Part shown: positions 74-41,813 of the stretch, in pieces
Layout of the letters: the number at the start of each line of letters is the position of its first letter
Numbering within the stretch: position 1 is the first letter of the stretch
Program-made: the position numbers and the translations under genes
IMG/VR virus record: IMGVR_UViG_3300021197_000442
Location: 1-41,985 of that record
From: a virus
Reading direction: 5' to 3' (one strand)
DNA: 41,985 nucleotides
The notes under the pieces: generated by a model
The model's database searches: none
The model's input: the letters and a program-made list of their open reading frames with translations, nothing else
Told to the model about the DNA's origin: nothing

Positions 74-781
74 TTAAGTAAATAGATTATGCTTTCGCGC
101 TTGGAATCGTAGCGCGTCGGCATAGAAAGCGGGCTGCATTCTTAAGGCTTCGTCGAAGGCAGGCTTTAGCCATGGGTTCTTAGGGATTACTACAGACTCG
201 CGGGTCATATCGTGGACCATCTTAATTTTAGGTCGACGCTTGCCGCCGATAACTTTAAAGATACCCTTACTCTTACCCAGGTCCAGGAAGACGTATTTAC
301 GGCCTGTGGCCGCCGCCTGCTTGATAGCTACTAAGTTACGTTGCTTACGGCTGGTACCCTTGCTACGGCGCTTAGATAGCTGTATCTGGGCCATAGTATT
401 AGCCTTACGCGGTAGCCTGGTCCGTGGTTGGCCGTTCTCGCCCTGGCCTGCAGAGTAAGACGTCGCTATCTGTACGCCCTCCTTACCGGTCTTAGACTTG
501 ATAGCCCCGAACTCCTGGTCTTCCATGTAATCAGCAATAGAGCCCACAATGGCCTCCTGTCTCGATATCTGTAGCGTCTTAGCCTGGTCTACCTGGATAC
601 TTTGGGCTGTAAACCGATTACGGTTAACCATGGATTCGCGTACGTCCGCCTGGGCTATTGCTCGGGCTGCGAACGCTGAGTCGTTTAACGTCTTACGAGT
701 AGCAAACGGTACGGACTTCCTAGCGAAAGTCTTAAGGTCGTCTTCTAGTTTTCTAACATCATTTGTATTTATGGCGAACAT
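74..781 (-). CDS. Neck / tail-completion-like phage structural protein
   Basis: A basic protein of 235 residues. The longer reading from 844 is rejected because the ATG at 781 has a strong Shine-Dalgarno (AGGAGGG, about 8 bases upstream) and opens the conserved-looking start MFAINTNDV. The body resembles a widespread family of phage structural proteins with a long basic middle (KRRSKGTSRKQRN) and a VIPKNPWLKPAF segment near the end, typical of neck or tail-completion proteins. The exact family is inferred from resemblance only. It stands far from the other structural genes in this linearisation, but if the DNA is circular or concatemeric it becomes the first gene before the terminase and could be read from the minus-strand promoter at 1170-1198. 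Confidence 0.65.
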   Translation of the reverse strand: MFAINTNDVRKLEDDLKTFARKSVPFATRKTLNDSAFAARAIAQADVRESMVNRNRFTAQSIQVDQAKTLQISRQEAIVGSIADYMEDQEFGAIKSKTGKEGVQIATSYSAGQGENGQPRTRLPRKANTMAQIQLSKRRSKGTSRKQRNLVAIKQAAATGRKYVFLDLGKSKGIFKVIGGKRRPKIKMVHDMTRESVVIPKNPWLKPAFDEALRMQPAFYADALRFQARKHNLFT

Positions 782-1154
782 AGTATCGGCCCTCCTAGCT
801 ACTAATAATACCACACGGCGCCGGACAAGCCAGACCCCAGACAAACCCCTCGAATACCCAGCGCTACGGGGTGGCTACAGGCCGCTAAACGTAACGGCTA
901 CATCTCTTTTACCTAATTACCCCTTATTTTATTAATTAGTAGAGATTATATATATAGTATAGTACAGCATAGTATGTATACAGATATAACAATCATACAT
1001 ATATAACGTATTATAACGTATTAATATCTATAAACAGTTTCCGAGTACGGGTTATATGGGTAAAACCTACGTACCCCGCGCCGTTACTGGTGTCCCGTAC
1101 AACCCCCCACACTATCGGGGTGGGCTGGATATAGCTAAATGTATTACGTTTGCA
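782..1154. other. Long non-coding AT-rich region (candidate origin or regulatory region)
   Basis: About 370 bases without a convincing gene on either strand. From about 905 to 1040 it is strongly AT-rich and full of alternating TA steps, unlike the rest of this roughly half-GC genome. It holds a 7-bp inverted repeat (CTAATTA 913-919, TAATTAG 933-939), a tandem 10-bp repeat (1003-1022) and a C-run/G-run stem candidate near 1103-1125. It lies between two divergent genes. It could be an origin or DNA-unwinding element, or the long leader of the minus-strand gene; the sequence alone does not decide. Confidence 0.45.
1003..1022. repeat. Tandem 10-bp repeat, two copies
   Basis: ATAACGTATT occurs twice head to tail (1003-1012 and 1013-1022) inside the AT-rich intergenic region. 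Two perfect copies in tandem could be iteron-like binding sites or simple sequence drift. Confidence 0.6.
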
Positions 1155-1202
1155 TAAGTTGTTAGCGGTTATTTACTATGTTATACTGCCGCTAACAACT
1201 TA
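1155..1202. promoter_or_regulatory. 14-bp perfect inverted repeat containing a divergent promoter pair
   Basis: Arms at 1155-1168 and 1189-1202 are perfect 14-bp reverse complements separated by 20 bases. On the plus strand a TTGTTA -35 (1159-1164) lies in the left arm, followed after exactly 17 bases by TATACT (1182-1187). On the minus strand the right arm supplies TTGTTA (1198-1193), followed after 17 bases by the weaker TAAATA (1175-1170). A protein bound to the arms would cover the plus -35 and the plus transcription start. Promoter assignment is inference from spacing and sequence. Confidence 0.7.
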
Positions 1203-1219: not shown

Positions 1220-2092
1220 ATGAGTTTTATTAAATACACCCGCTTCGACGGGGCCGCTAGCCGCTACCCGCTAGATAAAATTACCGCTACAACACGTAGA
1301 ACAAACAAATATGACGTTAACGACGGCCCCGCTTGCTCCGCTTGTGTACCGTTCCAGTCAATGACCCGGGAGGCGCATATCCGGTTTACTAAGAACGACC
1401 ACTGTTCGCTATGCGCTGATATGGACGCCTTCGACCTATTTAATATGCTTAACCACCTGGAGCTAGAAGTCGGCGACAATGTGGTTTTACCTACCGTGGT
1501 CGGCGGTCGTATAACAGCGACTTACCGGAATGCTTCGCTAGGTCGTGAGTTATCCAGCGAAACGCTAGCAATGTACCGGGAAGCGGTCGTCGTGCTGTAT
1601 GGCGAAAGCTGTAACGTCGATTGTCTACCGTCCCCGCCGAGTTCACCTTCGGAAGCTACGGAGCGCGGTTTTAAACACTACTTACGCCCTCAATGCTGCC
1701 GCGACTGCGGTTCGGTAGGCTTACGTATAACGGACGATAGTAAGTGTTATTTTTGCGAAAGTGAGAAGCGCGCACCGTCACCGCGCCAGCAAGCCATAGC
1801 AAACGGTGATACCTGGTACACGCCTAACGAGCCCTGCACTAAGTGCGGGGAAATAGCCGAACGTAGGGTTAACGACGGTAAGTGTAAAGGCTGTAAGCCT
1901 GCGGTAGATAGTAGGGCGACGCCTGATTCTATAATGATGGAAGAAAGCCCTAATTTAGTTGTAGCAAGAGAAGACGCGCGTAGCTTTGGGTTTAAGGTAT
2001 ATAGGACTGGTGAAGCATGTAATAAAGGCCACACGGGTTTTAGGTATGTATCGACCGGTAATTGTATCGAGTGCATTAAAAAGGGGCGCTAG
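1220..2092 (+). CDS. Tandem zinc-ribbon protein, function unknown
   Basis: A protein of 290 residues built around four predicted zinc sites: C39/C42 with C62/C65; C160/C163 with C176/C179; C206/C209 with C222/C225; and C267/H271 with C282/C285. The last three share a common unit (Gly, then Tyr, then CxxCG, an Arg, then CxxC), so they look like internal duplications. Similar single units occur beside HNH/endonuclease VII domains in other phage proteins, but no catalytic domain is visible here. The ATG has a GAGGA Shine-Dalgarno. The gene stands alone, with its own inverted-repeat promoter upstream and a terminator downstream, facing opposite to its neighbours. Nucleic-acid binding or sequestering of a host protein are both possible. 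Confidence 0.85.
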   Translation: MSFIKYTRFDGAASRYPLDKITATTRRTNKYDVNDGPACSACVPFQSMTREAHIRFTKNDHCSLCADMDAFDLFNMLNHLELEVGDNVVLPTVVGGRITATYRNASLGRELSSETLAMYREAVVVLYGESCNVDCLPSPPSSPSEATERGFKHYLRPQCCRDCGSVGLRITDDSKCYFCESEKRAPSPRQQAIANGDTWYTPNEPCTKCGEIAERRVNDGKCKGCKPAVDSRATPDSIMMEESPNLVVAREDARSFGFKVYRTGEACNKGHTGFRYVSTGNCIECIKKGR

Positions 2093-2107
2093 GCCCCCTT
2101 AGTTTTT
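2081..2107. terminator. Rho-independent terminator, probably bidirectional
   Basis: AAGGGG (2081-2086) pairs with CCCCTT (2095-2100), followed on the plus strand by AG and a six-T run (2103-2108). On the minus strand the same stem is followed by a five-T run. It overlaps the stop of the zinc-ribbon gene and the stop of the convergent minus-strand gene, so it probably ends both transcripts. Confidence 0.75.
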
Positions 2108-7131: not shown

Positions 7132-7638
7132 CTAGTAATTAGCTAATAATGTAGCGGCTTCCGCTTTCAACCCGGCCGGCGCTTTCTTAGCGTGGTCGTC
7201 CCCATTTGCTAGCCCCTGGGCGATAATTTCCGCGATACCTTGCTTAATAGCCCGGCGCATTACGGCCGTTTTAAGTTGGTTCATAGTGCCGAAGTAACGA
7301 GTAACCAGGCCCATAGATACGCCGGCGGATTCCGCTATCTTATCGCGGGTAATTTTGTTATAGCCTGATACTTTAGCCATGGCTACCGCTATGTTAAGGA
7401 TATGGTCCTTACGTAATTCCGGGTTAGCGCGGGTTTTACTTACCGAGTGCGCTATCTCCTGGATATTTTCGAGTTTCAATTCCTCGACAAAGTCGGAGAA
7501 ATTACAGCCCATAATATGCGGGAACGAACCGTCCGGAATACCGGCACGTTCGCATAACTCGCGGCGGGATAAGTTAATTAGGCCTTCGCCTTTAACCATA
7601 CAGACCGCTACTTCTTTTACCTGTTCGCGTTGTTTCAT
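7132..7638 (-). CDS. Double TetR-like helix-turn-helix protein
   Basis: A protein of 168 residues with two TetR-N-like units in tandem. Unit 1 has its helix-turn-helix at about 24-46 (SRRELCERAGIPDGSFPHIMG). Unit 2 is at about 97-119 (TRDKIAESAGVSMGLVTRYFG). Each is preceded by a similar helix (VAVCMVKGEG, IAVAMAKVSG), which points to an internal duplication. There is no large ligand-binding domain after the second unit. It could be a DNA-binding regulator or a replication accessory, and sits directly upstream of the PrimPol-helicase. It has its own promoter with the shared palindrome, so autoregulation is possible. Confidence 0.75.
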   Translation of the reverse strand: MKQREQVKEVAVCMVKGEGLINLSRRELCERAGIPDGSFPHIMGCNFSDFVEELKLENIQEIAHSVSKTRANPELRKDHILNIAVAMAKVSGYNKITRDKIAESAGVSMGLVTRYFGTMNQLKTAVMRRAIKQGIAEIIAQGLANGDDHAKKAPAGLKAEAATLLANY

Positions 7639-10606: not shown

Positions 10607-11473
10607 ATGAAAACGATTAGTTTAACCGTCCCTATGGACTATAACGCTTTAACCCGCGCTAGCGATATGTTACACGGCCTAGCTATTGATTTAAGCAAAG
10701 AGAAACCCGCCCCGGTAGTTACTGGCCCCGGTGCTTCTTCTACTGCAGCCGACGACCAACATATCGCGGCGCCAGAAGAACAGCCGACCCCCGCTCCTGC
10801 TCCTGCTCCTGCAGTAACTACCGAACCAGCGGCTACGGAAGTATTCGCGGCCCCAAACGCCGACACTGTAGCGAGTGCAACGGAACAGCCGGCGGAATCT
10901 GTCCAGCCTGCAGCGCCGGCCGAGTCTGTCACGGTTGCGGAACCTGTAACAACTGCTGCCGCTCCGGCTGGCGTCGAAGTTGATAGCGATGGTTTACCCT
11001 GGGACCATAGAATCCACGCTTTAGGCGCTGGCGGGGCTCATAATAAACTTAAGAAGACCCAGCAATGGAAGAAGAAGCGAGGCGTAGACGCTGCCCTGGT
11101 AGCCGAAGTAGAAGCCGAACTCCGCGCCGCTATGTCTGCGGGACCCGCTAACCCAGTGGTTACCGAACCAGCGCCAGCGGGAAACGCTGCCACGGCTGCG
11201 GTAGAACCTTCGCCGGCTCCTGCTTCCCCTGCGTCACCGGCTGCAGCCCCGACTACTGCGGCGGCTGCTGTCCAGCCTGCTAGCCCTGCGCCAGCACCGG
11301 CACCAGCGGGCGGTACTACGACGTTCCCGGCATTAATGGCGGCTATCACTGCTAACGGTATCGACCAGGCGGCCGTAACTGCTGCAGTAAACGCGCAAGG
11401 TTTACAAGCCTTACCACTATTAGCCGCACGTCCGGACCTTATCCCGGCGGTAGCTGCAGCCCTGGGGGTGTAA
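10607..11473 (+). CDS. Ala/Pro-rich multidomain phage protein
   Basis: A protein of 288 residues. A short N-terminal domain (to about 35) is followed by a long Ala/Pro/Glu linker, a compact central domain around GLPWDHRIH with a basic KKTQQWKKKRG strand, a second Ala/Pro linker, and a C-terminal helical domain. The PWD-x-RIH domain is recurrent in phage early proteins but of unknown function. As first gene of the plus arm it is likely strongly expressed. The linkers suggest a scaffold joining partners at the replication fork; this is inference. Confidence 0.75.
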   Translation: MKTISLTVPMDYNALTRASDMLHGLAIDLSKEKPAPVVTGPGASSTAADDQHIAAPEEQPTPAPAPAPAVTTEPAATEVFAAPNADTVASATEQPAESVQPAAPAESVTVAEPVTTAAAPAGVEVDSDGLPWDHRIHALGAGGAHNKLKKTQQWKKKRGVDAALVAEVEAELRAAMSAGPANPVVTEPAPAGNAATAAVEPSPAPASPASPAAAPTTAAAAVQPASPAPAPAPAGGTTTFPALMAAITANGIDQAAVTAAVNAQGLQALPLLAARPDLIPAVAAALGV

Positions 11474-11475
11474 TA

Positions 11476-12645
11476 ATGTCCCATTCCATTTTACCGCCGT
11501 CGTCGGCTGGTATTTGGGGTAAGCCGGACGGTTGTACGGGTTGGGTCTTAATGGCCCAAACTTACCCGGAGACCGAAGAATCCGTCGAAGCCCGCGAAGG
11601 TACCGCGTCGCACGAAATAGGCGCCGAGATTATTACGGACGCCCAGACTAATACCCGCCAGCGCCATACGGCTAAGGATTGGGTCGGGATTACCGCTTCT
11701 AACGGGGTATTACTTACCGAAGAAATGTTCGACGCTGCCAAAATGTACGCCGACGACGTTATTAAGGTAATGCGTAGTACGGGCGTATTCGGCGGGCCTA
11801 ATATTCGTATCGAACAGCGCGTCGAGATTCCCATGGTACACGAAATTAACTGGGGTACGCCGGACTGCTCTATCTATCATAAAGCTAAAAATACACTATA
11901 CCTTTGGGACTATAAGTTCGGTTTCGAGGTTGTAGAAGCGTTCGAAAATTGGCAAGCGATAGACTACGTAGCCGGCTTACTGGACGAACTGGAAATTAAC
12001 GGCCACGTAGACCAATTTACTAAGGTCGTTATCCGTATCGCCCAGCCGCGAGCATTCCACCGCGACGGACCTATCCGCGAATGGGTTGTCCTGGCGAGTG
12101 AGTTACGGGCGCATATCAATATTTTACACGGTAACGCTCATAAAGCACTAGGACCGGACGCGGAGTTCCATACCGGTAACCATTGTAAGCACTGCCCTGG
12201 GCGCCACGCTTGCGAGCCAGCACTTAAAGCCGGTCTAGGTATGTACGAGTTAACCGCTAAACCGGTACCCGTGGAATTATCAGCGGAAGCCCTGGGCGTT
12301 CAACTAGCGATAGTTAAGCGAGCCCGTAAACAGTTGGAATATTTAGAGTCCGGATTCGAAGAACAGGTTAAGGGGCTTATACGTTCCGGCTCCCTGGTAT
12401 CGGGCTGGGCGGTAGAGCAAGGCTTCGGCCGTGAAACCTGGGGTAAACCTATAGCGGAGGTTATAGCCCTGGGCGATATGCTCGATTTCGACCTTAGAAA
12501 ACCCGTCGACGCCATTACGCCGAACCAGGCTAGAAAATTAGGTATTGACGACGCCGTCATTACGGCATATAGTACAACTCCTCGAACCGGTATTAAAATA
12601 GTCCCGGATAATGGTAACAAAGCTAAACAGGTATTTAAAAAATGA
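11476..12645 (+). CDS. DUF2800 nuclease, Cas4/AddB-like
   Basis: A protein of 389 residues matching phage DUF2800. The PD-(D/E)XK core shows EGTASHEIGAE (H46/E47), PDC (D130), WDYKFG (D145, K147) and a motif IV NWQAIDY (Q160). C20 together with C235, C238 and C244 gives the one-plus-three cysteine layout that holds an iron-sulfur cluster in Cas4 and AddB. It is probably an exonuclease processing DNA ends during replication or recombination. Its stop overlaps the SSB start (ATGA). Its last codons contain a promoter. Confidence 0.85.
   Translation: MSHSILPPSSAGIWGKPDGCTGWVLMAQTYPETEESVEAREGTASHEIGAEIITDAQTNTRQRHTAKDWVGITASNGVLLTEEMFDAAKMYADDVIKVMRSTGVFGGPNIRIEQRVEIPMVHEINWGTPDCSIYHKAKNTLYLWDYKFGFEVVEAFENWQAIDYVAGLLDELEINGHVDQFTKVVIRIAQPRAFHRDGPIREWVVLASELRAHINILHGNAHKALGPDAEFHTGNHCKHCPGRHACEPALKAGLGMYELTAKPVPVELSAEALGVQLAIVKRARKQLEYLESGFEEQVKGLIRSGSLVSGWAVEQGFGRETWGKPIAEVIALGDMLDFDLRKPVDAITPNQARKLGIDDAVITAYSTTPRTGIKIVPDNGNKAKQVFKK
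12545..12573 (+). promoter_or_regulatory. Internal promoter with palindromic operator ahead of the SSB gene
   Basis: TTGACG (12545-12550), 17 bases, TATAGT (12568-12573), about 70 bases before the SSB ATG and inside the coding end of the nuclease gene. The -35 belongs to TTGACG-N4-CGTCA (12545-12559), the same palindrome as at 4178-4193 and 7694-7708. Coding constraint could produce a chance match, but the identical -10 and spacing argue otherwise. Confidence 0.6.
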
Positions 12646-13601
12646 GCAATCAAAATTTAACGCAAATCTTAACCCCGGTCGGTCGTCTAGTACAAGGTGA
12701 CTGTTTCGAACCTCAAACTACAGACGCGGAAGGTAAACCGCTTCTAATTAAAAATGGCCCGAACGCCGGCCAGCCTCGCGTAGAGTATTTTATGGCTATC
12801 GCGGTACCAAAAACCGACGCCGGATATAACGAAGTATGGGCGGCCATCCATGGCGTAGCCCGCGCGGCCTTCCCGTCGCTGTTCGACGCTTCGGGTAACT
12901 GTATTAACCCTAAGTTCGCTTTTAAGGTAACGGACGGCGATAGCCAGGTCCCGAACACTAAAGGTACGAAACCTTGCGACCGTGAAGGCTTCCCGGGTAA
13001 CTGGATTATGAACTTTAGCGGCGGCTTCGCTCCTAAGTGCTACACGGCTGGCGGTGCGGAACTGATTACAGACCCTAATATGCTTAAGCGTGGTTATTTT
13101 ATCCGTATCTACGGTAGCGTTAAGGGTAACGGGTCAATGCAGCAACCGGGTATTTTCCTTAATCACTCTATGGTTGAACTGGTAGGCTACGGCGAAGAAA
13201 TACATAGCGGCCCAGACGGCGGTAGCGTATTCGGCGGCGCTCCTGCGACGAATTTACCAGCGGGCGCAAGTGCTACGCCTTTGGCTAGTTCTGCCCCTAT
13301 CGCCCAGGCTGCCCCGGCTCCTGCAGCGGCACCAATGCCAGGCGCGGCGGCTGCTCCTGCCCCTATGGCTGCGCCAGCGGCGGCCCCTGCTCCTAGTAAT
13401 GTACAACCGGCCCCGGACTTCCTTAACGGTCCAGGCGCGGCGGCTCCTGCTCCTGCAGCGGCGCCAGCACCCGCACCAGCGGCGGCCCCGGCTCCTGTAG
13501 AAGTTAAGTACCTGGACGCTAACGGTACCGCATTTACCGAAGCGCAACTCCTGGCCGCTGGGTATCAACCGGCACAAATCCAGGCACTAGCGCGCGCTTA
13601 A
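12642..13601 (+). CDS. DUF2815 single-stranded DNA-binding protein (gp2.5-like)
   Basis: A protein of 319 residues. Residues 1 to about 200 match phage DUF2815, the T7 gp2.5-like OB-fold ssDNA-binding family (VEYFMAIAVPK, FPGNWIMNFSG, RGYFIRIYGSVKGNG, GIFLNHSMVELVG). A long Ala/Pro linker and a short helical tail (TEAQLLAAGYQ) follow. The tail is not the acidic aromatic end usual for gp2.5. It should coat ssDNA and coordinate the polymerase and helicases. It overlaps the nuclease gene by ATGA and ends at a strong terminator. Confidence 0.85.
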   Translation: MSNQNLTQILTPVGRLVQGDCFEPQTTDAEGKPLLIKNGPNAGQPRVEYFMAIAVPKTDAGYNEVWAAIHGVARAAFPSLFDASGNCINPKFAFKVTDGDSQVPNTKGTKPCDREGFPGNWIMNFSGGFAPKCYTAGGAELITDPNMLKRGYFIRIYGSVKGNGSMQQPGIFLNHSMVELVGYGEEIHSGPDGGSVFGGAPATNLPAGASATPLASSAPIAQAAPAPAAAPMPGAAAAPAPMAAPAAAPAPSNVQPAPDFLNGPGAAAPAPAAAPAPAPAAAPAPVEVKYLDANGTAFTEAQLLAAGYQPAQIQALARA

Positions 13602-38950: not shown

Positions 38951-40936
38951 TTAATCGCTATAGTAAAGTTTCTCGTTTTCCAGGTAATCCCAGAAAGTCG
39001 GCCAGTCGACCGTCTCTAACTCGAAATGCTGAATACAAATAGCCCAGGCTAGTATCTCTACCGCCGCGTGGCCGTAACAGAGTAAATCCCACAATTCGTT
39101 ACGCGCGTTACCTGGTCGGTACCAGAAGTAAGAGACGTTACCCTTTTCGTCCTTACGTTCGCGCCTGGTTTCGACGGTAAGTTCCTTAAGCTGCTTATCC
39201 GAAATATCTATCGGGGCGTTAAAGTGGTATTTCTTTTGCTCGCCGGCGCCTTCTTCCCATTCTCGACGAAGTACGGGCGCTAAACGGTCCTTGTAGTGGT
39301 CTACCAGGATACGGTACCCGACCGTACCGGCCTGGGTAGTAAACTCGGCGAATTCCTTAATAGTCTGGTTTTTAGCGGGGCGGTCTCGGCCCAGGATAGG
39401 GTAGACGCCCGAAGCATAATCGGAACAGAAAGTCGTAACCGTGTCGTTAGCGTAGCCGGCGTCGACCAGGGTAATAGCGACGCGGTACTTTTTGCCGTCG
39501 TCGGCCGTATACTCTTTTTCTTCGATAAGTTCGCGTAGGCGGCCCCATACCGGGCTAGTTAATTCGCTACAGTCGTCTTCGTTGCCTTCCACTTCAAAGC
39601 GCCAGTAGTCGATAACGTACGGCTTAGAATCCCGGCACCAGCCCATAACACTAACGGCTAAATTTTGCTTATGGACGTCGACCTTACACGTAAGGAACAG
39701 GATAGCCGAGCCCGAAAACTTCTTCGCGTATTCGTTAGGGATTGTGCCCAGGCGGTAAGCTGCTCGTCGGTGCGCTGATACGCTGGTAAATCGAATTTTA
39801 GAGCCCATAATTTCGAACGGTTCGGCCAGGATATTATTATAAAATACCTGGTACTTACCGATATCGCGGACCTTCTTTTCGACCGGGTCAAAACCACGAA
39901 GGTAGGCGCTAACGCATTTATACCAGGGCTGCATACCGATAGGCGAGTATAGCGCCGGTAAGTGGTACGAGCGGATACCGGGCTCTACGGGTCTGGCCGT
40001 AGGCGTCCATATTGCCCCGTGGTCTTCGGAGAATAGCCGCTCTTTGTCGTGTTCGTAATGTGGCGTTCCGCAATTTCTACAGCAATACCGGACCGATTCC
40101 AGGACCAGGACGCCGTTATCTAGCTCCCACTGGAAGCCGCCGACGACGCCGGTTTTTTTATCGACCGACGACCAGCGTAATTCCTGGGGGAAGCCGCACG
40201 ACTTGCAAAGTACGTTATATTTTCGCTGGTCTCCGCGTAAATACGCCTGCTCTATTTTCGACGCACCTTTTACCAATGGCGTAGACCCTCGGAAAATCTT
40301 ACGACGTTCCCAGTAGCCCGAACAGCGGTCGTCGCTTAGTGCGTCCGGGTCGCCGTCCTTGCCTACCGTATCGGGCCAGGCGTCTATCTCGTCTTTCAAC
40401 ATAACGCAAATAGAATACGAGCGCATTTTATCCGCATTTTTCGCGCCGAACGGTACCAGGTAGCCGCCGCCTTCAAATTGTAAATGATTGGCAGTTTTAC
40501 CGGTTTTACGGCTGTTACCTTCGTCGCTTGAGCGGATAATATGCCCTAGGTCGGAATGGTTAAGCATGGGTAAAAAGTTGTTTTCGATACGTGCGGCCGC
40601 GAGTTCTTTATCGGCGGTTAAATACATTATCGGGAGCGTTTTAACATGGCCCATAAAATACAGGGCACCAGATTCCAGTACCGTAGAGTAGGTAATCTGT
40701 ACGCCTTTCTTAAGGTTTACTTCCCGGACTGGGCTATCGATATCGAAACAGTCGACTATCTCGCGCATAAACGGGTTAACGTCGTAGCGAATAAATCCAG
40801 GGATAGACGTAACGGATTCTGGTAGGTATCGGTTTTCTTCGTTGTATTGGCTGGGCGTAATATGGATTACTTCGTCGGTCATTTCTCCGACTTCTTCGAC
40901 GACCCAGTCGGCGCCGATATTATCAATTTTACGCAT
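38951..40936 (-). CDS. Terminase large subunit, GpA family
   Basis: A 661-residue protein of the GpA terminase family. The ATPase region has a non-standard Walker A (LKKGVQITYST, lacking the usual G-K-T/S), as some GpA proteins do, and Walker B LKDEIDAW. A paired CxxC region (CKSCG, CCRNCG) may bind zinc. The nuclease domain shows CKVDVHKQN, LVDAGYAND and NARNELWDL, with the acidic residues expected for cutting concatemers. It translocates DNA into the prohead. Its start overlaps the small subunit gene by 8 bases. Confidence 0.92.
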   Translation of the reverse strand: MRKIDNIGADWVVEEVGEMTDEVIHITPSQYNEENRYLPESVTSIPGFIRYDVNPFMREIVDCFDIDSPVREVNLKKGVQITYSTVLESGALYFMGHVKTLPIMYLTADKELAAARIENNFLPMLNHSDLGHIIRSSDEGNSRKTGKTANHLQFEGGGYLVPFGAKNADKMRSYSICVMLKDEIDAWPDTVGKDGDPDALSDDRCSGYWERRKIFRGSTPLVKGASKIEQAYLRGDQRKYNVLCKSCGFPQELRWSSVDKKTGVVGGFQWELDNGVLVLESVRYCCRNCGTPHYEHDKERLFSEDHGAIWTPTARPVEPGIRSYHLPALYSPIGMQPWYKCVSAYLRGFDPVEKKVRDIGKYQVFYNNILAEPFEIMGSKIRFTSVSAHRRAAYRLGTIPNEYAKKFSGSAILFLTCKVDVHKQNLAVSVMGWCRDSKPYVIDYWRFEVEGNEDDCSELTSPVWGRLRELIEEKEYTADDGKKYRVAITLVDAGYANDTVTTFCSDYASGVYPILGRDRPAKNQTIKEFAEFTTQAGTVGYRILVDHYKDRLAPVLRREWEEGAGEQKKYHFNAPIDISDKQLKELTVETRRERKDEKGNVSYFWYRPGNARNELWDLLCYGHAAVEILAWAICIQHFELETVDWPTFWDYLENEKLYYSD

Positions 40937-41813
40937 TTTTTAAGGCCCTCGCTACTTTGGCCTTAACTGGTCGTATAAAACTGGTTATCTGGTCGGCGAC
41001 GAATTTTTCGATATCTTCGAGCGGTCTTTCGGCCGAGTGCATGGCCGTAGCGCGCCTGGCGATTGTCTTAGCGCCGTCCGTAAGTAATTTAATATGGCAG
41101 GCGTCTATAGGTTCGATAATCCCCGTACGAACTAATTTACGGCTAACGAGTTCGCCTTCGGTGGTCGCGTTCTTAAGTCGCTTTTCGTTAATGGCTTCGA
41201 TTTTTTGCGTAGCGCTTAACCAGTCTACGAAGCGGGTATCGGTGCCAAATTTTTCTATAAGTTCGCGGAGCGTCATATCTGCGAACGCCTGTATATCTTC
41301 TGGAATTTCGAATATTTCGTCGTCCTGGTCCGCCTGGCGTTTCTTCGCTGCTTTAACTGCAGCGGTACCGCGTACGTGTGGCTGCAATTTCTCGACGGCT
41401 GCTTCTATCTCGCCGGCCTGAATAACCACAGGTTCGGGATTCTTTAAGCCTCCGGGCTTCGTCGGGTCCCTACCTTCCGGTATTAAGCCGTTAGCGCGCA
41501 TCGTGGTTATTATGCGGTGGGCTCGGTTGTACCCTATTTTAAAATGCCGCTGCAGCCCAGAAACCGAATAACGGTCGACGGTTCTACAGTGTTCGACGGC
41601 TTCTTCGTAGATAGCGTCGAGCCCAGAAGCGGGCGGCGGGGTCTGGTCCCGGAGTTTTATTTCCAGGTACGAAACGGCGGAAGGGTGCGCGGCGTCTATA
41701 CGCTTCCCGTCTACGGCGTCTTTAAGAATGTTATTACAGGCCTTCGTCACTGCTGCAGCGCTTACGCCAGCCTGGCGGGCAAATTCGGCCCGGCTTACTA
41801 GTTTTTTAACCAT
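40929..41813 (-). CDS. Terminase small-subunit-like protein with FtsK-gamma-like winged helix
   Basis: A 294-residue protein. An N-terminal helix-turn-helix (about 6-30, RAEFARQAGVSAAAVTKA) is followed at 64-113 by a segment closely matching the FtsK gamma domain: SVSGLQRHFKIGYNRAHRII, the part of FtsK that reads KOPS sequences. A helical C-terminal half (from about 160) resembles terminase small subunits and may bind the large subunit. By position it recognises the packaging site. No Shine-Dalgarno stands at proper distance, and the promoter lies so close that the mRNA may be leaderless. Confidence 0.75.
   Translation of the reverse strand: MVKKLVSRAEFARQAGVSAAAVTKACNNILKDAVDGKRIDAAHPSAVSYLEIKLRDQTPPPASGLDAIYEEAVEHCRTVDRYSVSGLQRHFKIGYNRAHRIITTMRANGLIPEGRDPTKPGGLKNPEPVVIQAGEIEAAVEKLQPHVRGTAAVKAAKKRQADQDDEIFEIPEDIQAFADMTLRELIEKFGTDTRFVDWLSATQKIEAINEKRLKNATTEGELVSRKLVRTGIIEPIDACHIKLLTDGAKTIARRATAMHSAERPLEDIEKFVADQITSFIRPVKAKVARALKNA

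Follow-up and report, generated by a model that had tools for sequence, protein, structure and literature searches.

A conserved family of stand-alone zinc-ribbon arrays beside the terminase genes of several phage lineages, a possible regulator of late transcription

Stand-alone zinc-ribbon arrays encoded divergently from the terminase operon constitute an undescribed gene family, which is proposed here. The member analysed is encoded in a 41,985-bp virus record (the window, meaning the whole stretch of DNA) by an ORF at positions 1220–2092 of the plus strand; its 290 aa product carries four zinc-ribbon units and lacks a catalytic domain. Direct observations are the protein and its conservation, its constant genomic place, a conserved DNA element beside it and copies of that element at the starts of late-gene blocks. 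Judged from sequence, the array is tentatively regarded as a DNA-binding transcription regulator of the phage early-to-late switch, a reading with somewhat less than an even chance of being right.

Architecture of the array protein

The array ORF begins with ATG, preceded by AAGAGGA, and its product contains 18 cysteines arranged in four units, all described here by plus-strand coordinates. Unit 1 (1334–1414) is a divergent ribbon, C39xxC42-x19-C62xxC65, with cysteines kept in Shewanella phage SppYZU01 and the marine homologues. Unit 2 (1649–1768), recognised by its metal-ligand set, alignment and structural model, has the ligands C160xxC163-x12-C176xxC179. Unit 3 (1778–1897) has the form SPRQ..G..WY.P..PCxxC-x12-CxxC, with ligands C206xxC209-x12-C222xxC225; it is supported by alignment A4 and by PHROG matches at residues 185–226, and its type is common to the window, SppYZU01, marine, Jedunavirus, Yokohamavirus and AAM22-type arrays. 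A linker, TPDSIMM (1919–1939), invariant in the alignment of the long homologues, precedes unit 4 (1958–2077), which has the form REDA..G..VYRTG..CxxxH-x10-CxxC found in HNH proteins, with ligands C267xxxH271-x10-C282xxC285. Unit 4 is matched by phrog_1081 and by a hidden Markov model (HMM) of HNH-protein units (domain E 9.8e-13).

Units 2–4 follow one plan, comprising a short helix (RQ.A or REDA), Gly, Tyr, CxxC or CxxxH, Arg and CxxC, and unit 1 is more distant from it, as the earlier note had described when it reported one repeated unit at three of four sites. The number of CxxC motifs in the protein, seven, compares with a mean of 1.05 in shuffled sequences and was reached in one of 20,000 shuffles. 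A combined unit pattern matched five times, two of these matches (C159/C160) being one unit; in 5,000 shuffles the mean was 0.09 and the highest count four. The AlphaFold model of the protein has a low mean pLDDT of 56.7, with moderate values of about 75–84 in units 2–4, where the predicted order is helix–strand–knuckle–strand–knuckle/helix. A PDB fold search with both models returned nothing significant.

Kinship with HNH proteins

No family match to the array protein was found in Pfam, NCBIfam, PADLOC or PDB sequences; the sole Pfam line, YhfH, is at chance level (E = 9.7). The HNH catalytic motif is seen in relatives, L013, L014 and L056 among them, and is absent from the array protein according to Pfam, PHROGs and NCBIfam. 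ORF, ligand sets, shuffles and database searches thus agree with the earlier description of four zinc-ribbon units without a catalytic domain. A whole-length profile match to a known enzyme, the result that the earlier note had said would speak against such an array, did not appear: PHROGs yielded unnamed families only, each matching single units. Among them are phrog_1081 (E = 7.4e-12), of the HNH-linked N-terminal unit type, and phrog_29682 and phrog_20468, both at residues 185–226 and hence limited to unit 3.

An HMM built from the units of HNH proteins only recovered the window protein with E = 1.4e-17, the best value among 2,600 shuffled sequences being 0.92. A separate set of proteins consists of one or two array-type units followed by HNH; these are matched by phrog_1081, which covers the unit, and by phrog_1035 (endonuclease VII). 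Sequence comparison indicates that the array unit and the N-terminal units of phage HNH/endonuclease VII proteins are homologous, which bears out the earlier placing of the unit next to such domains in phages. The arrays probably arose from DNA-binding units of homing endonucleases, and not the other way round. Both kinds of protein, the stand-alone array and the unit-bearing HNH protein, occur together in PEAT2 and in the marine genomes G004 and G006. Two-unit HNH proteins were also seen beside stand-alone arrays in the same genomes at L056 764–1612, L057 300–1232 and L011 2447–3208. Scanning IMG/VR with the window protein as single query, and GTDB genomes with A1, yielded little or nothing.

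Control signals and neighbouring genes

The array gene has a sigma70-like promoter, TTGTTA-17-TATACT (1159–1187, plus strand), 32 nt upstream of the ATG. Its -35 and the start region are straddled by a perfect inverted repeat with 14-bp arms that resembles an operator (1155–1202; arms 1155–1168 and 1189–1202, spacer 20 bp). No other perfect inverted repeat in the window has arms of at least 11 bp (loops of 3–40 searched), and the longest arms in eight Markov resamples of the window were 11 bp. Since the transcript would start inside the right arm, the inverted repeat would act, if at all, as DNA and not as RNA. The arm GTTGTTAGCGG occurs elsewhere in the window at chance numbers (16 against 15.9 expected), so there is no regulon of that operator. 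The sequence of the repeat is not conserved among relatives, some of which have short AT-rich inverted repeats near their array promoters. A sigma70-like promoter upstream of the array gene was found in all 12 lineages tested, mostly with 9–10 matches out of 12.

An intrinsic terminator (2081–2100, plus strand) with a stem at 2083–2097 and a T-run follows the gene. The stem has T-runs on both strands and therefore also fits the convergent early operon, the last small gene of which lies at 2099–2281 on the minus strand. On the other side, the array gene is divergent from the late genes. The first of these downstream of the candidate late box is a homologue of SppYZU01_03 (74–844, minus strand); the next, across the record ends, occupies the terminase small-subunit position (40929–41813, minus strand), to judge by the same gene order at SppYZU01_04. 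An operator-like promoter and terminator of its own, and an orientation against its neighbours, had been ascribed to the gene in the earlier note, and both descriptions stand. Two replication-region proteins of the window (10607–11473 and 12642–13601, plus strand) contain Ala/Pro-rich low-complexity stretches.

Relatives and genomic place

The earlier note had regarded the array as an orphan; it is instead a conserved syntenic gene in several phage lineages. SppYZU01 has a full-length homologue at the matching place (41% identity in a global alignment), as do five IMG/VR loci (L004–L008), whose arrays have three to five recognisable units. Shorter homologues of 170–214 aa lie at the matching place in Jedunavirus, PEAT2 and KsaM-C1; for the Jedunavirus/Peatvirus type, 73 of the 79 matching records were covered over at least 80% of a 193-aa query. 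Yokohamavirus PEi21 (Edwardsiella) and Pantoea phage AAM22 also have shorter arrays there, and Stenotrophomonas phage B2 has a four-unit array. Stand-alone arrays reach five units, and in every lineage examined the array is divergent from the terminase operon and faces the end of the early block. The window protein has the protein-level features of the proposed family, a unit 3 of the WYxPxxPCxxC...CxxC type and no nuclease.

In Bordetella phage IFTN4, a single case with a partly similar TerS, another gene occupies the array place and there is no motif cluster. A 347-aa protein of Escherichia phage Bas95 (L017 519–1562) also has four units, followed by a C-terminal part that is unrelated; within the stretch covered, its gene is not near a known terminase locus. 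The arrays at L004 2573–3346 and L008 3686–4447 have nearly identical C-terminal parts and different N-terminal parts, which suggests recombination inside the array gene between marine phages.

The primase, VRR-NUC-type protein, helicase, and the proteins at the exonuclease and SSB positions of the window have homologues in KpPS2, PEAT2 and PEi21; its tested terminase, capsid and sheath proteins have none in these three. The array thus belongs to the early/replication module and not to one terminase type and, as far as such gene comparisons tell, it survives exchange of the structural block. In two close pairs of array genes dN/dS is 0.07–0.08, which indicates purifying selection. The same value, with an array conserved over wide divergence and ligand residues kept, leaves strongly disfavoured the notion of a decayed, functionless homing endonuclease that has lost its HNH, for all the homology of the unit with HNH proteins and the two-unit HNH proteins in the same phages.

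A conserved DNA element beside the array

The gap between the late genes and the array promoter (845–1154) has GGGGT motifs around an AT-rich middle. The density of GGGGT is 16 per kb in 845–1219, compared with 1.7 per kb in the rest of the window, and the 100 bp with the highest AT content in the window, 926–1025, lie inside the gap. In 12 lineages the gap is rich in GGGGT/GGGTA, which are its top 5-mers, and its middle is strongly AT-rich; 26 copies of CGGGGTA were counted in these gaps, 0.3 being expected from composition.

Read towards the late genes, the element (late box) consists of an AT-rich stretch, GGGTATTAAGGGTA with a repeat distance of 8–9, 5–8 nt and a -10-like TAGTAATA or TAGTATAG; about 10–15 nt past the latter is a block such as CAGTAACTTA. 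It lies about 60–240 nt upstream of the first late gene (TerS) in every listed lineage. The candidate box of the window, GGGTAATTAGGTA (907–945, minus strand, read from 922 down), faces the late genes and is the top match in 42 kb of a model made from the other lineages (E = 0.39). No other instance of the element is as weak, and it has no clear -10; in most relatives the box is strong.

KpPS2, PEAT2, PEi21, MSW-3 and three IMG/VR contigs (n = 7) have a second copy where the neck/tail block begins, always oriented into the late genes, and at these sites in annotated genomes opposite-strand genes interrupt the late genes. In PEAT2 (L033 34246–34560) and KpPS2 (L031 48328–48501), the second copy keeps both sides, with GGGTAAAATGAGGTATTGAC facing the opposite way; the whole bidirectional promoter region therefore seems to have been duplicated. 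The gap of Stenotrophomonas phage B2 (L018 2055–2488) contains many copies of a longer repeat, GTACTTGGGGT, and the adjacent array units are divergent; in this phage the repeat and the units of the protein may have changed in concert.

Because the GGGTA motif was first noticed in the gaps post hoc, two checks were made. In a leave-one-lineage-out nhmmer search, the TerS or tail site was the top match in 8/8 targets, with E-values of 4.9e-12 for PEi21, 1.2e-5 for SppYZU01, 1e-4 for KpPS2, 0.16 for L005 and 0.39 for the window. This HMM was used in place of rigid box patterns, two of which, run over whole records, missed most sites because the spacing varies; a rigid pattern with two mismatches gave chance matches only in the window. 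Secondly, IMG/VR was scanned with the DNA pattern and nothing else; ten stretches matched, in seven contigs, every one of which has a stand-alone array. New arrays were obtained in this way, including one of five units on a 4.5-kb fragment (L039) and one of 183 aa (L059). No significant box match was found in 14 comparison loci with HNH-linked units only, other stand-alone units or no array, the best being the TerS gap of StenoB2 (E 0.25).

Proposed role and alternatives

Under the preferred reading, that of an early-to-late regulator, the array protein would be made early from a promoter of the host-sigma70 type. Its nuclease-less chain of zinc-ribbon units would bind the GGG(G)TA repeats of the gap; we infer this binding from position and co-occurrence. 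The presumed late promoter would have a -10-like element without a good -35 and, instead, two GGGTA repeats 8–9 bp apart. Array protein sitting over the missing -35 could recruit RNA polymerase and turn the late promoter on, in principle as P2 Ogr does (PMC3931495), its presumed effect being activation rather than repression. Autoregulation of the kind seen in I-TevI (PMC2988022) may also damp the early promoter of the array gene. The wider proposal, of an undescribed early-to-late switch family in which tandem arrays derived from homing endonucleases read a GGG(G)TA code in several genera of 42–50 kb myoviruses with exchanged structural genes, is possible and is put forward with some doubt.

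The box might instead be the site of the TetR-like HTH protein encoded near the primase gene (7132–7638, minus strand) or of a host factor, with the array present by shared history and acting on another target. This protein has a plain DNA-binding fold and is conserved beside the primase region in 13/14 related records, so that it co-occurs as well as the array does and could be the binder. StenoB2 is the one record without it, and there the box too is degenerate. The array, however, always adjoins the element, whereas the TetR-like gene is about 6 kb away. This alternative is unlikely, although it deserves to be taken seriously; the TetR-like protein is a possible second regulator.

It is less probable still that the gap is a replication origin, with iterons and an AT-rich unwinding region, and that the array is an origin-binding protein autoregulated via the inverted repeat in the manner of plasmid Rep proteins. 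Inverted GGGGT/ACCCC repeats do flank the 100 bp richest in A+T, and the array travels with the replication module. The second element copy that several genomes carry at the neck/tail start, oriented inward, nevertheless suits a promoter better, and the GC skew has no clear switch at the gap.

Counter-defence, or the decoy or anti-host factor suggested in the earlier note, would be compatible with an early promoter and a small DNA-binding protein that stands alone. Nothing points there: PADLOC gives no match and the place of the array, with the replication module, is fixed in every lineage examined, whereas counter-defence genes are typically patchy. Such a role is improbable; of the functions listed earlier, that of a stand-alone regulator is the best supported.

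A packaging accessory at a pac/cos site near the terminase small subunit is very improbable. The array always adjoins terminase genes, and HNH proteins are known packaging partners (PMC5304195). Unrelated terminases, however, stand beside the same array and element, the second element copy is far from the terminase, and the late genes are on the strand opposite to the array.

Implications

Among the phages under study as candidates for therapy against Klebsiella are those of Jedunavirus. No description of late-gene switching in Jedunavirus was found in the literature. If the regulator reading is true, one unannotated gene and one DNA box would explain late switching in several genera, and the array units and target repeats might pair one to one. 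The laboratory phages JD001, KpV52 and MEW1 make this reading directly testable. A phage would then have recruited the DNA-binding unit of a selfish endonuclease as its own regulator, in parallel with CapR and plant AP2 factors (PMC10448857).

Comparison with known systems

The clusters phrog_20468 and phrog_29682, of unknown function, hold short homologues of the Jedunavirus type; the window protein matches them by unit 3 only, and neither has a described function or context. In the phage HNH/endonuclease VII proteins (phrog_1035 with phrog_1081), the array-type unit is present in one or two copies N-terminal to HNH, whereas the arrays have no HNH, a fixed genomic place and up to five units.

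The Ogr/Delta late activators (PF04606) are small zinc-binding proteins (Ogr, P4 Delta, 186 B) that activate late promoters without a good -35 through a shared recognition site. The ligand spacing of the array differs from theirs and no Pfam match places it among them. P2 Ogr has the ligand pattern CX2CX22CX4C and sites of the form TGT-N12-ACA (PMC3931495); the array has CxxC-x12-CxxC units and candidate sites GGGTA-N3/4-GGGTA. I-TevI has a zinc finger in its DNA-binding half and represses its own gene via an operator over the promoter (PMC2988022), but it keeps the GIY-YIG nuclease, and the array has no nuclease.

CapR, the zinc-finger capsid repressor of the PLE satellites of Vibrio phage ICP1, is a stand-alone zinc finger that controls phage late genes and had its origin in a homing endonuclease, as the DNA-binding domain (PMC10448857). 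The array resembles it as a stand-alone zinc-finger protein and, presumptively, in its homing-endonuclease origin and late-gene action. All array units end in CxxC, PADLOC gives no match to the array, and a Pfam search, the one means by which T5orf172 was looked for, did not find it. CapR derives from T5orf172 nucleases and has a CxxC...CxC pattern, whereas the arrays consist of up to five CxxC/CxxxH...CxxC units related to HNH/endonuclease VII proteins. CapR is borne by a satellite and blocks its helper; the array is the phage's own gene.
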